Made by a program: the position numbers and the translations under genes
NCBI GenBank assembly: GCA_001184205.1
Contig: LBMP01000001.1
Location: 1,392,001-1,456,000 of the forward strand
Reading direction: 5' to 3'
DNA from: Desulfocarbo indianensis
Lineage (GTDB): Bacteria; Desulfobacterota; Desulfarculia; Desulfarculales; Desulfarculaceae
DNA: 64,000 nucleotides
Shown: positions 49,582 through 52,970 of the stretch, one piece after another
How positions within the stretch are numbered: the first letter of the stretch is position 1
How the letters are laid out: each line of letters starts with the position of its first letter
Notes under the pieces: model-generated
Told to the model about the DNA's origin: nothing
The model's input: only the letters and a program-made list of their open reading frames with translations
Database searches by the model: none

Positions 49582-50577
49582 ATGCAGAATTCAAAGATCG
49601 TGGGCACCGGCTCCTACTGTCCCGAGTTGGTGCTGACCAATAAGGACCTGGAGCGCATAGTGGATACCAGCGACGACTGGATCACCAAGCGCACCGGCAT
49701 AAAAGAGCGGCGCATAGCCAAGGACGGCCAGTTCACTTCCGATCTGGCCGCCGCCGCCGCCAGGGAGGCCTTGGCCATGGCCGGCCTCAAGGCCTCCGAC
49801 CTGGACCTGATCGTGGTGGGCACGGTGACGCCGGACCGCCAGTTCCCCTCCTGCGCCTGCACGGTGCAGCACAAGATCGGGGCCAACAACGCGGCCGCCA
49901 TGGACGTGAGCGCCGGCTGCTCGGGCTTCGTCTACGCCTTGAGCGTGGCCCACAACGCCATCCGCTGCGGAGCGTCGAAATACGCCCTGGTGGTGGGCAG
50001 CGAGGTCTTGAGCGCGGTGACCAACTGGCAGGACCGGGGCACCTGCGTGCTCCTGGGCGACGGCGCCGGCGCGGTGGTCTTGGGGCCGGCCGAAAAGGAC
50101 ACCGGCATCCGCTCCATCAAGCTCAAGAGCGACGGCGCTTTCGGTGATCTTCTCTATTCGGTGGACGACAACATAACCCGTCCGGTGCCCTCCCTGCCCG
50201 AACGCCACAACCACACCAAGCCCTTTTATCTGGTGATGGACGGCAACCGCACCTTCAAGAAGGCGGTGCAGTGCCTGGAGGAGATCGCCCTGGCTACCCT
50301 GGAAGAGGCCAAGGTGGGCGTGGATGAACTGGCCTTGGTGGTGCCCCATCAGGCCAATCTGCGCATTATCAACGCCCTGGCCCAGCGCCTGGGCCTGCCC
50401 GAGGAAAAGGTCTACGTCACCATCCAGAAATACGGCAACACCTCCTCGGCCACCATCCCCGTGGCCCTGCACGAGGCCAACACCAGCGGCCTGTTGCGTC
50501 CCCGCGACAAGCTGCTTCTGGTCACCTTCGGCGCCGGTCTGACCTGGGGAGGCTCCCTGGTGGATTGGGCCGCCTGA
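49582..50577 (+). CDS. fabH: Beta-ketoacyl-ACP synthase III
   Basis: A 331-residue thiolase-fold enzyme starting MQNSKIVGTGSYCPELVLTN. The catalytic triad is intact: Cys113 in DVSAGCSGFVYAL, His256 in VVPHQANLRI and Asn286 in YGNTSSATIP. WITKRTGIKERR and GAGLTWGGSL complete the KAS III profile. It condenses acetyl-CoA (or a branched acyl-CoA) with malonyl-ACP to start fatty acid synthesis. It stands outside the usual fab cluster, with its own promoter and terminator. A specialised role is possible but nothing in the sequence demands it. Confidence 0.96.
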   Translation: MQNSKIVGTGSYCPELVLTNKDLERIVDTSDDWITKRTGIKERRIAKDGQFTSDLAAAAAREALAMAGLKASDLDLIVVGTVTPDRQFPSCACTVQHKIGANNAAAMDVSAGCSGFVYALSVAHNAIRCGASKYALVVGSEVLSAVTNWQDRGTCVLLGDGAGAVVLGPAEKDTGIRSIKLKSDGAFGDLLYSVDDNITRPVPSLPERHNHTKPFYLVMDGNRTFKKAVQCLEEIALATLEEAKVGVDELALVVPHQANLRIINALAQRLGLPEEKVYVTIQKYGNTSSATIPVALHEANTSGLLRPRDKLLLVTFGAGLTWGGSLVDWAA

Positions 50578-50600
50578 CAGTTTTTCCCTGGCGTTTTTTC

Positions 50601-50640
50601 AGAGCCCCTTGGAGCCCCCGCCTCCAAGGGGCTCTTTTTT
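50601..50640 (+). terminator. Strong intrinsic terminator after fabH
   Basis: AGAGCCCCTTGGAG (50601-50614) and CTCCAAGGGGCTCT (50622-50635) form a perfect 14-bp stem with a 7-nt loop. A T tract follows (50635-50640). Confidence 0.95.
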
Positions 50641-50718
50641 ATGGGCCGCGCCGGGCGGCGGCCTTTTAGGGAAAAGCCTTCCTGGCCCGCGCCTCAAGCC
50701 CGCGTCAAAGTGAGCGGC

Positions 50719-51057
50719 ATGACCGAGCCGCGCCCATACCTGACCCTGGTGGACCCCGAGGAAAGACTGCCCCTGCACCTCCATGGCAGCACTCTTTTCT
50801 ACCGGCGGCTGAGCCTGGGAGCCCTGGCCGGCATCGAGCGCGCCCAGACCGTGCTTCTGCCGGCCAGCGGCGACGAACCCCCCCGGGCGGTGCTGCCCAG
50901 GGCGGCACTGGAGGCGGCCATCATCGATCACGTGCTGGTGGGCTGGCGGGAGGTCCGCGGGGTCCGGGGCCATGAGCTGCCCTTCAGCCAGCGGCTCGCC
51001 CGCCGGCTGCCCGGCGGGGTGCGCGAGGCTTTATTGAGGCGGGCGCGGGCCTATTAA
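50719..51057 (+). CDS. Small protein resembling a phage tail-assembly chaperone (divergent copy)
   Basis: The start at 50719 (MTEPRPYLTLVDPEERLPLHLHG) gives 112 residues. An upstream extension of 26 residues reads like untranslated sequence. It is a divergent paralogue of the next gene: both have a VDPEER or IDPEER opening, a short beta stretch, LxxIER near residue 35, a D-x-V-L-x-W segment (IIDHVLVGWREV here) and a C-terminal helix. That pattern matches small tail-assembly chaperone-like proteins of tailed phages. No capsid, tail or integrase gene is adjacent. It follows the fabH terminator and lies 25 nt upstream of its paralogue. Function unproven. Confidence 0.65.
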   Translation: MTEPRPYLTLVDPEERLPLHLHGSTLFYRRLSLGALAGIERAQTVLLPASGDEPPRAVLPRAALEAAIIDHVLVGWREVRGVRGHELPFSQRLARRLPGGVREALLRRARAY

Positions 51058-51082
51058 AACAAATTCGCAAAGGAGACGACCC

Positions 51083-51400
51083 ATGGTTGCAGGCATTCAG
51101 ATAATCGACCCCGAGGAGCGTTTCCGGGTGGAGATCGACGGGGCCGGGCTTTTCATCCGCCGCATCGATTCGGCGGCGCTCATGGCCATCGAGCGCCGCC
51201 GCCAGGGCGAAGGGAACCGGCAGGCCATCAACGACGACGTCTTGGATTACGTGCTGCTGGATTGGGAGGGCGTCAGCAGCCCCCTGGGCGATTCCCAGGT
51301 GCCCTGCACCCGGGAGAACAAGCTCAGGCTGCCCACCTCGGTGAAGCTCAAGGTCCTGGCCGCGGCCCAGATGCCCCGCGCCCAATTGGGCGAGGTCTAG
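51083..51400 (+). CDS. Small protein resembling a phage tail-assembly chaperone
   Basis: A 105-residue protein with an AAAGGAG site 8 nt ahead. After the beta-rich N-terminus (RFRVEIDGAGLFIRRIDSAAL) comes YVLLDWEGVSSPLGDSQV then PCTRENKLRLPTSVKLKVL. The WEGV...G...VPCT-x-ENK-x-x-LP pattern is characteristic of tail-assembly chaperone/minor tail proteins in Mu-like and related phages. It is the better conserved of the tandem pair. The genes are convergent with the lactate permease across a shared hairpin. They could be remnants of a prophage or a domesticated function. Confidence 0.7.
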   Translation: MVAGIQIIDPEERFRVEIDGAGLFIRRIDSAALMAIERRRQGEGNRQAINDDVLDYVLLDWEGVSSPLGDSQVPCTRENKLRLPTSVKLKVLAAAQMPRAQLGEV

Positions 51401-51407
51401 GCTTAAC

Positions 51408-51466
51408 GGCGGCGGCTTGGGGCGGGCGTAAAAAACCTATCCACGCCCAGGCGCCCGGCCGCCGCC
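51408..51466. terminator. Bidirectional hairpin between convergent genes
   Basis: GGCGGCGGC (51408-51416) pairs with GCCGCCGCC (51458-51466), and an inner GGGCG/CGCCC stem surrounds a run of six A. On the plus strand TTTC follows. It separates the tail-chaperone-like gene from the convergent lactate permease. Confidence 0.6.
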
Positions 51467-51476
51467 TTTCATGACC

Positions 51477-52970
51477 TCAGGCGATCAGCCAGACGATGAC
51501 ACCGATCAACAGGGAGGCGGCCACCCCCAGGGGAATGGTGAGCCGCAGGATGTCGCCCTCCTGCCCCAGGGCCCCGCACATGGGCGTGGCGATGGCGATC
51601 TTGAAGGGCGAGGATATGCTGCCCAGGGAGGCCCCCACCGCCAGGCCCGAGGCCAGCCAGGTGGCGCTGATGCCCATGAGCCCGGCGGTCTCCACCTGCA
51701 ATTGGCCGAAAAGCATGAGGGAAGCCACGCCATAGCCGGTGAGGAAGGTGCCCACCCAACCCAAAACCGGCACGAAAATCGGATAAGCGCTGCCGGCGAA
51801 GACCGTGAGCCCATTGGCCATGACCCAGGGCAGGTTGGACGCCTCCTTCAGCTCGGCGAAGCCGGGGGCGTAGCCGGAATAGGCGAAGATCTGGCCCATG
51901 GCCCCGAACAGCCCCATGGCCAGGGAGGCCCGCCAGCCTTTCTGGCTGCCCGCCTTGATCACCTGGCGCAGCTTGTCGCCGTGCACCTTGAACAGGCGCG
52001 CCGCCAGGAAAAAGGCGATGAACAGATACAGGTAGGCCGAAAAAAACGGCCGGAAGGTTATGGTGTGCACCGGGATCACCCGCAGCTCCAGGCTCAGGCG
52101 GCTGAAGCTCAGATCCTTGAGCGGGGGCACCGTGTTCAAGAGAAGCAGGGCGGCCAAAAGGAACAGGAAGGGCGACAGGTCCTTGAGGATGCCTCCCTTG
52201 AGGGTGAGCGAGCGGGTGCCGATCAGGACCAGAAACAGGATCAGGGCCAGGCCGGCCACCATGCCGCTGATGCCCACGTTGAGCCAGGCCGCCGAGGCCA
52301 GGGCCGCGAACCCCAGCACCATGCCGCAGGCCAGCACCAAAAACCAGCTACGGGGCGCGGGCAGGGGGCGGGGCAGGAATAGAGGTATGCACAGGGCCAT
52401 GGCCAGGGTGGCGGGGATGGAAAGCCAGGCCGAGGCCATGCCCAGCTCGTCCAGGGGGATGCCGGTGACGATGGACAGCACGGTGATGATGATGCCCGCC
52501 ATTTCCAGGGTCATGAGCCCGGAGTAGCCCACGATGGAAAGCGCGGTGGCGCCGGCCGGCGCCAAGCCGGCGGCCCGCAGCATGGGCGCCACCACCGGCT
52601 CGGCGATGACGCCGGCGCCCTCCATGAAGTTGCCCACCCCCATGGAGATGAGAAGGGTGCGGTGAAAGGTGTCGCGCACGCCGCCCATGAACCAGTCCAC
52701 GATGCGGCTCAGGGAGCCGGTGATCATGAGCAGGCTGGAAAGTAAAATGCCGGCGAAGATCACCAGTATCAGGGGTAAAGTGGTCAACACGCCGTCCAGG
52801 CCGGCCAGGAGCGCCACCGAAAGGGGGGTGTCGAAAAAAAACACCACCAGGATCAGTGAATAGGCGGTGCCGTAAACGGACAGATCCAGGGCGGGCCGCC
52901 GGAACCCCACCGTCAGAATGGTCAGCAACAGGACCGGAGTCCAGGAGAGGAAAAAGGGCCAGGCGCTCAT
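51477..52970 (-). CDS. lctP: L-lactate permease, LctP family
   Basis: The start at 52970 (MSAWPFFLSWTPVLLLTILTV) behind AGGAGGA gives 497 residues with 12 or more hydrophobic helices. LctP-family stretches include MGVGNFMEGAGVIAEPVVAPML, GYSGLMTLEMAGIIITVLSI, and near the C-terminus GASLGSISSPFKIAIATPMCG. It imports L-lactate or glycolate with protons, a typical electron donor for sulfate-reducing-type anaerobes. It is divergent from a MarR-type regulator gene (starts 177 nt apart) across an A/T-rich operator-like region. No lactate dehydrogenase is in the window. Confidence 0.9.
   Translation of the reverse strand: MSAWPFFLSWTPVLLLTILTVGFRRPALDLSVYGTAYSLILVVFFFDTPLSVALLAGLDGVLTTLPLILVIFAGILLSSLLMITGSLSRIVDWFMGGVRDTFHRTLLISMGVGNFMEGAGVIAEPVVAPMLRAAGLAPAGATALSIVGYSGLMTLEMAGIIITVLSIVTGIPLDELGMASAWLSIPATLAMALCIPLFLPRPLPAPRSWFLVLACGMVLGFAALASAAWLNVGISGMVAGLALILFLVLIGTRSLTLKGGILKDLSPFLFLLAALLLLNTVPPLKDLSFSRLSLELRVIPVHTITFRPFFSAYLYLFIAFFLAARLFKVHGDKLRQVIKAGSQKGWRASLAMGLFGAMGQIFAYSGYAPGFAELKEASNLPWVMANGLTVFAGSAYPIFVPVLGWVGTFLTGYGVASLMLFGQLQVETAGLMGISATWLASGLAVGASLGSISSPFKIAIATPMCGALGQEGDILRLTIPLGVAASLLIGVIVWLIA

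Follow-up and report, generated by a model that had tools for sequence, protein, structure and literature searches.

A conserved pair of tail-assembly-chaperone-like genes in the Desulfarculaceae as a probable part of a dispersed gene-transfer-agent-like element

Two adjacent genes of Desulfocarbo indianensis, here called A and B, are best read as tail-assembly chaperones (TACs) by descent. They are probably the TACs of a domesticated, non-contractile, siphovirus-like particle of the Desulfarculaceae, most likely a gene transfer agent (GTA). On balance, the element would seem to be an independently evolved GTA of this sulfate-reducing family, derived from a Mor-controlled siphophage, with its virion genes in four loci and with a regulon marked by one motif. 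The computed support consists of the homology and fold of the TACs, the presence and conservation of the four loci, the low dN/dS in close genome pairs, a shared promoter motif and the largely congruent trees of three of the four loci.

GTAs are hard to distinguish from prophage remains, and the part of PMC11841831 used here states that homology cannot definitively locate novel ones and names only a few hosts beyond the Alphaproteobacteria. Starting from the orphan TAC pair, an almost full complement of particle genes was recovered in a lineage on which no GTA report was found in the open-access literature. Moreover, the combination of an orphan chaperone, a shared motif and a contiguous relative provides both a bioinformatic route and a testable regulon. 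Dispersed elements are expected to be missed by cluster-based prophage callers. Finally, a contiguous phage relative and a split element, taken together, could allow the path of domestication to be studied.

Occurrence and identity of the gene pair

The original prediction described two paralogous, tail-assembly-chaperone-like genes that stand alone between fabH and lactate permease in the window, i.e. the whole 64-kb stretch of DNA that was analysed (Table 1). A search of their own genome (G000) indeed showed A and B to be paralogues (35% identity, E 1.4e-5), and no third copy was found in it up to E 10. The pair is preceded by fabH and followed by a lactate-permease-like gene on the other strand, both named by eye. 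Considering the terminator-like stem-loop of fabH and the fact that no sigma-70-like promoter was found in 50500-51600, A and B probably form their own transcription unit. When 20 profiles built on the genes of the element were run as a panel, only A and B were matched within the window, so that the solitary position of the pair was borne out.

Table 1. Features of the gene pair and its upstream region; positions refer to the window
Feature	Position	Strand	Evidence
Terminator-like stem-loop 3' of fabH	50601..50635	+	14-pair stem, then T-run
Weak promoter-motif site	50666..50693	+	EM motif, consensus TTTGtGcGcCgCCTccCTGGGCcGCCcC, common to dispersed loci
Gene A, TAC-like protein, 112 aa	50719..51057	+	ORF, paralogy and relatives
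Gene B, TAC-like protein, 105 aa	51083..51400	+	AAAGGAG precedes start

Relatives of B were found in 17 of 60 related genomes, namely in 15 of the 20 Desulfarculaceae and in two genomes from another family of the same class. Within the Desulfarculaceae they show 57-76% identity; in one of the 15 genomes (G016) the match is to A and is cut off at the contig end. A and B are adjacent in 13 of these 15 genomes, and the contigs of the remaining two end inside the pair. Since 15 of the 20 Desulfarculaceae contain A or B, the two are genes and not chance frames. A profile of A, run against a draw of genomes from the phylum, matched only nine genomes, all of them Desulfarculaceae.

Direct profile searches with A and B gave nothing significant (B against PHROG 313, a TAC family, E 0.23; Pfam none), nor was any match to a non-phage family obtained. 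A search with P0002 yielded no confirmed relative in IMG/VR and only insignificant matches among phage records (best E 0.9). The identity of the pair was instead provided by its more distant relatives. Genome G009 carries, on a separate contig, a prophage-type module (L040) with a more distant extra copy of B, flanked by a Phage_tube_2 tail-tube gene (PF18906, 2.4e-18) and a tape-measure gene (PF20155, 5.8e-26), and the same order of tube, B-like gene and tape measure is found in L041 and L042, which belong to the other family. The B-like genes of L040, L041 and L042 score against PHROG 313 with 5.4e-6, 1.2e-10 and 2e-8, respectively.

AlphaFold models were obtained with a pLDDT of 87.5 for A and 80.1 for B. 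Compared with viral models, that of B matched best the 'Tape measure chaperone' of Proteus phage PM135 (E 8.9e-4, prob 1.00); this was its only viral-model match below 0.001, and several tail assembly chaperones rank lower. The comparison with the PDB was weak for B (3klu, B. subtilis YqbN, with prob 0.72 but E 0.96) and without significant match for A. The B-like relatives at the TAC position, their PHROG 313 scores and the fold match of B together make TACs the best reading of the pair, and the original assignment is thus upheld.

The likeness to phage TACs is one of homology, by way of the phage-type relatives and the predicted fold of B. There are differences as well. Genes for phage TACs commonly give two products via a programmed frameshift, whereas A and B are two separate paralogous genes, each with its own start; the gap between them is 25 nt in the window and, as read from the coordinates, between -7 and +32 nt in 11 of the 13 complete pairs. 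In addition, A and B are distant from tube and tape measure: they are alone in the window, and the position between these two genes is occupied in L040, L041, L042 and L274.

Two species of one genus of the other family carry related tail modules, L041 (G031:C105) and L042 (G036:C159), whose genes are contiguous and whose tape measure is only ~380 aa long; L041 also holds an amidase and a holin. These modules could represent a second domesticated element, or else an ordinary prophage.

Four dispersed loci

Tail and capsid genes elsewhere in the genome, which the original prediction proposed to look for, were found at three more loci on the same contig. On this 1.54-Mb contig of G000 the head cluster is located at ~0.141-0.150 Mb, the tail-tip cluster at ~0.463-0.468 Mb, the tape measure at ~1.244-1.246 Mb and the TAC pair at ~1.443 Mb. 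The four parts lie likewise apart in the single-contig genomes G003 and G010. Among the 20 Desulfarculaceae genomes the head was found in 15, the TAC pair in 15, the tape measure in 12 and the tail tip in 15. All four parts are present in ten genomes (G000, G003, G004, G008, G009, G010, G011, G012, G014 and G019) and none in two (G002 and G006, each more than 90% complete). The other eight have one to three parts: the assemblies of G001, G005, G013, G015 and G016 are 54-86% complete, and in G007, G017 and G018 (all above 90%) the tape measure, the TAC pair, and the head plus tape measure were not detected, respectively. A head cluster without a detected TAC pair is seen in G017 (96% complete) and in G013 and G015 (near 70%), and no tape measure was counted, despite the presence of other parts, in G001, G005, G007, G013, G015 and G018.

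The head clusters were obtained by a tail-tube search of the family, which matched 16 of the 20 genomes. One locus, L110 (G001:C45), was rejected as an ordinary prophage-type module in which tube, TAC-position gene and tape measure lie together, which brought the count to 15. These 15 clusters are syntenic and comprise a Mor-family activator, small genes, a small-terminase-like gene, the large terminase, portal, protease, HK97-type capsid, adaptor, an HK97-gp10-like gene, tail terminator and tail tube, followed by host-looking genes. The genes from capsid through tube are present in all 15. Terminase and portal were found in 11, the stretches of the other four (G005, G013, G015 and G019) having an edge within the cluster; the Mor gene was likewise found in 11, including G000 and G014, with the same four stretches cut short. 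Every cluster ends after the tail tube, and a genome-wide search with B revealed no TAC at the end of any of the 15.

A lipoprotein-like gene (L250:1422-1841 and homologues), divergent and fast-evolving, adjoins the Mor gene in nine loci as well as in G000 and G014. It is spanin-like by appearance only and has no family match. No endolysin was identified among the genes of the split element.

The tail-tip clusters were found with the profile of a tail-hub-like protein from L041/L042, and the 14 loci fetched of the 15 all contain the same four genes; further hub fragments in G011 and G015 were left out of the locus count. The proteins have no informative family match apart from one PHROG of unknown function, and 'hub', 'dtp' and 'fibre' are working names given by position. 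Of 63 genomes searched, 18 contain the hub, among them three from the class but outside the family; among 395 genomes drawn from the phylum, it was matched in G132 and in nine Desulfarculaceae. PF13550 gave nothing over cut-off, its weak matches at G000:C1:465569 and G007:C110:11235 lying in a tail-tip gene.

The tape measure was traced with the L041/L042 profile, all matches of which were weak; the one at G003:C1:535435 led to a stand-alone ORF of 972 aa. Stand-alone tape measures were subsequently matched in 14 of 20 genomes, of which 12 were counted (the match in G001 belongs to a prophage and that in G013 to a different frame), and all 12 loci were fetched. The 855-aa protein of G000 matches a tape-measure PHROG at 8.6e-6. 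In eight of the genomes the ORFs are 567-855 aa long; that of G003, with an uncertain start, reaches 972 aa.

Several other candidates were discarded. PF10145 led only to contractile injection-like systems (L130 and L131), contractile-tail prophages (L132 and L133) and unrelated frames, all judged by eye. PF20155 exceeded its cut-off in three genomes: in G009 and G001 the match belongs to a prophage-type module, and in G012 it adjoins a second tail-tube match; the remaining matches are low-scoring and some look coiled-coil-like. In five neighbourhoods with weak matches (L214-L218), only host genes were recognised by eye.

The tape-measure locus of G004 (L241:4208-10260) has three short ORFs that resemble the N-terminus of a tape measure and alternate with antisense genes; it looks like a cassette array. 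The antisense genes form a repeated family of ~258 aa, three tested members of which had no Pfam match, and repeats of this family also adjoin the tape measure of G010, G012 and G017 (L240, L244 and L245).

The gene content and its arrangement can be compared with what is expected of a GTA. Structural and packaging genes, identified by family matches, occur without replication or integration genes, as judged by eye: the gene lists beside the loci revealed no integrase, transposase or replication gene. Moreover, in G000, G003 and G010 these genes occupy several distant loci, and multi-locus encoding is typical of GTAs according to the part of PMC11841831 used here. The same part of that text names a small terminase without DNA-binding domain as a GTA trait. 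Among the 11 aligned rows of the small-terminase-like protein, a label derived from weak matches (Pfam below cut-off; PHROGs at 1e-4), the HTH-like N-terminus is missing in G000, G007, G009 and G011 and kept in six, the row of G014 being cut by the locus edge.

A shared promoter motif

EM on 57 upstream stretches yielded a 28-bp motif (consensus TTTGtGcGcCgCCTccCTGGGCcGCCcC), the 5' end of which lies 52-55 nt before the start codon of A in 14 of 14 loci. The motif is also found upstream of most tail-tip and head operons. It is absent upstream of the Mor gene, to which nine of the 57 stretches belong (scores at most 4.5). A check of the Mor gene with 0 of 9 carries no independent weight, as its stretches also contain the head site. 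Among the 48 non-Mor stretches, 40 score above 8; the eight that do not are the tip of G003, the head of G014 and the tape measures of G000, G003, G004, G008, G009 and G010. A TAnnnT-like box is often seen ~11 nt after the motif, and a -35 box is not apparent. Such a layout is that of an activator-dependent promoter, as in Mor-controlled phage promoters.

The recurrence of the motif was evaluated with held-out matrices, with the seed register taken from the joint run. A matrix trained on head and tip only, run over both strands of the TAC loci (6-64 kb), placed its single best site at most 170 nt upstream of A, a limit chosen after the distances were known, in 10 of the 14 loci. These hits derive from genera g4 (six), g7 (three) and g5 (one) and are non-independent, as many loci come from one genus. 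The misses were G000, G003, G018 and G009, the last with the site at second rank. Conversely, a matrix for which the TAC loci alone served as training set had its best site at the expected place in 9 of 14 loci for the tip, 6 of 11 for the head and 2 of 9 for the tape measure, the starts of the head operons being approximate in G003, G004, G009 and G014; the tape-measure motif was among the top three sites in 3 of 9 loci. Column-shuffled matrices (60 times) gave means of 0.12, 0.10, 0.10 and 0.03 and maxima of 2, 1, 2 and 1 for TAC, tip, head and tape measure, respectively. The site in the window, with its 5' end 53 nt before the start codon of A, scores 1.5 with the held-out matrix and ranks 28 of 127,946 positions; it is weak and not the best.

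Together, the genes and the motif would allow for the following scheme. The capsid cluster begins with the gene for a Mor-family activator, which would bind the motif and thereby switch on the promoters that carry it: that of the TAC pair, those of the capsid and tail-tip operons and, in some genomes, that of the tape measure. A and B would then bind and coat the tape measure during polymerisation of the tail tube. The head would be assembled and the terminase would fill it with host DNA, after which lysis would release the particles, which could deliver the DNA to other cells.

A contiguous phage relative and comparison with known systems

A contiguous relative of the split element was found in IMG/VR. 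The 35-kb record UViG_3300022177_000057 (stretches L279 and L274) was matched by 16 of the 20 profiles of the panel, in a scan that recorded only the best profile per ORF. Its gene order is Mor, g85, large terminase, portal, protease, capsid, adaptor, gp10-like, terminator, tube, one B-like TAC, a 78-aa gene, a 1483-aa tape measure, t175, hub, dtp and fibre. Genes of 78 and 176 aa, without profile match, occupy the places of g78 and the small terminase. The TAC thus lies between tube and tape measure, at the very point where the head cluster of the Desulfarculaceae ends. There are also differences: a single B-like gene plus the 78-aa gene takes the place of the two paralogous TAC genes, the tip order is t175-hub-dtp versus dtp-t175-hub in the split element, and the tape measure is longer than those of the split element. 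The spanin-like profile had no match in this record, and the phage carries an M15 peptidase. As for the controls of the panel, L132 and L133 gave nothing, L043 gave A and L130 gave one marginal match (gp10, 1.7e-4).

A second record, IMGVR_UViG_3300005252_000118 (L276), is filed as viral and contains the head cluster of the element from Mor to adaptor, with a capsid 73% identical to that of G000. It is likely chromosomal, since the head cluster of the element lies on it.

The relation to sequenced phages is distant. The large terminase is nearest to those of Pseudomonas phages such as JBD24 and MP38, with ~31% identity (best 15 of 270 records, all below 60%), and the capsid is 26-28% identical to phage records (best 15 of 178, all below 60%). 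The phages nearest by terminase are transposable siphophages of the D3112/JBD24 type. The element resembles this type in its large terminase, nearest among the matches listed, and in having a Mor-family activator, but such phages have contiguous genomes. No replication or transposition genes were noticed beside the loci of the element. Among GTAs proper, Dd1 is that of a sulfate reducer, and it is likened here by description to the Desulfarculaceae element for its sulfate-reducing host. Dd1 of Desulfovibrio is named in the part of PMC11841831 used here.

According to the portion of PMC11409702 used here, RcGTA is encoded by at least 24 genes in five loci, with a 17-gene cluster at one locus devoted mainly to head and tail morphogenesis. 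For RcGTA-like agents, vertical inheritance is described in the part of PMC11841831 consulted. The Desulfarculaceae element shares with RcGTA the siphovirus-like particle genes at several loci. The two differ, when compared by description, in that the main virion cluster of RcGTA lies at one locus whereas in the Desulfarculaceae head, TAC, tape measure and tip each have a locus of their own, in that RcGTA has hosts among the Alphaproteobacteria, and in the Mor-family activator of the Desulfarculaceae element.

Selection, descent and alternative explanations

The dN/dS values of six close genome pairs are low throughout. They range from 0.29 to 0.53 for A and from 0.22 to 0.48 for B (five of the six pairs each), from 0.14 to 0.27 for the capsid (MCP; all six), from 0.10 to 0.29 for the large terminase (TerL) and from 0.12 to 0.34 for the portal (four of six each), and from 0.50 to 0.58 for the tape measure (five pairs), with 0.58 as the maximum over all 19 genes tabulated. 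The medians over all pairs are 0.62 for A, 0.47 for B, 0.47 for the capsid, 0.37 for the terminase and 1.01 for the tape measure, and for several genes individual pairs exceed 1. We think that these high values reflect saturation of synonymous sites due to high-GC codon bias, and the close pairs were therefore preferred.

Trees of 12 genomes share 6 of 9 splits between head and TAC, 7 of 9 between head and tip and 6 of 9 between TAC and tip; random 12-taxon trees share 0.28 splits on average, with a maximum of 4 in 5000. The tape-measure tree disagrees and has only 2-3 of 7 splits in common with the others. The overall picture is one of vertical inheritance with purifying selection, the exceptions being the tape-measure tree and the high dN/dS over all pairs.

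The neighbourhoods, with neighbour genes identified via peptide patterns, agree with this picture in several respects. Near the tip cluster, pdxA is present in 10 of 14 loci and in four genera (g1, g3, g4 and g7). The neighbours of the TAC pair, which the original prediction had suggested to search for, recur within genera g3, g4 and g7: an NDP-sugar-epimerase-like gene is located less than 1 kb from the pair in g3 and in all seven g4 loci, and an ATP-sulfurylase-like gene is near it in 3 of 4 g7 loci. A QueH-like gene is found near the head cluster in all seven g4 loci, and four of the five g7 loci, as well as g5, have an acyl-CoA-dehydrogenase-like gene after the cluster. The neighbours of the tape measure are less constant than those of the other loci.

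The main rival explanation assumes the same dispersed, co-regulated particle with a benefit other than DNA transfer, for instance as a headed bacteriocin-like particle or through interference with incoming related phages. Head, tail and tip genes would be conserved whatever the function, and interference would have a target in the related prophage-type modules of the family (L040 in G009 and L110 in G001). Nevertheless, the close-pair dN/dS places terminase and portal with the better conserved genes, which points to DNA packaging, and we consider a particle without transfer function rather unlikely, though a serious contender.

The original prediction offered a prophage scar as one possibility, in which a decaying prophage would have been split by rearrangements with the TAC pair as a leftover. 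Such an origin could account for four loci that lie apart and for the fact that no integrase or transposase was noticed beside them by eye. However, the frames are open and conserved, dN/dS in close pairs stays below 0.6, the neighbours are largely conserved and a promoter motif is common to the loci, all of which renders decay very improbable.

The Mor activator and the terminase nearest to transposable phages would fit a phage satellite, or a complete, self-packaging phage with dispersed genes. Yet the loci, which are separated by up to ~1.3 Mb within a single contig of G000, cannot fit one phage-sized head, mobility genes were not noticed beside the loci, and the neighbours are largely conserved within genera and partly between them; we regard this possibility as even more remote than decay.

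Least probable of all is the suggestion, also made originally, that the pair belongs to a contractile (eCIS-like) system elsewhere in the genome, for although such a system is present by eye in the source genome (L130), its 1211-aa tape-measure frame is found in only 2 of 20 genomes (G000 and G003) against 15 of 20 for A/B, and it has only the single marginal panel match mentioned above. The third original proposal, a domesticated protein pair, came closest, but the pair is one part of a larger, non-contractile head-and-tail element.

The contractile injection-like systems L130 (G000:C222:262001-282000) and L131 (G003:C1:1998001-2018000) were both identified by eye. Their predicted proteins look, likewise by eye, almost identical across the two genera, which suggests a recent transfer between them.
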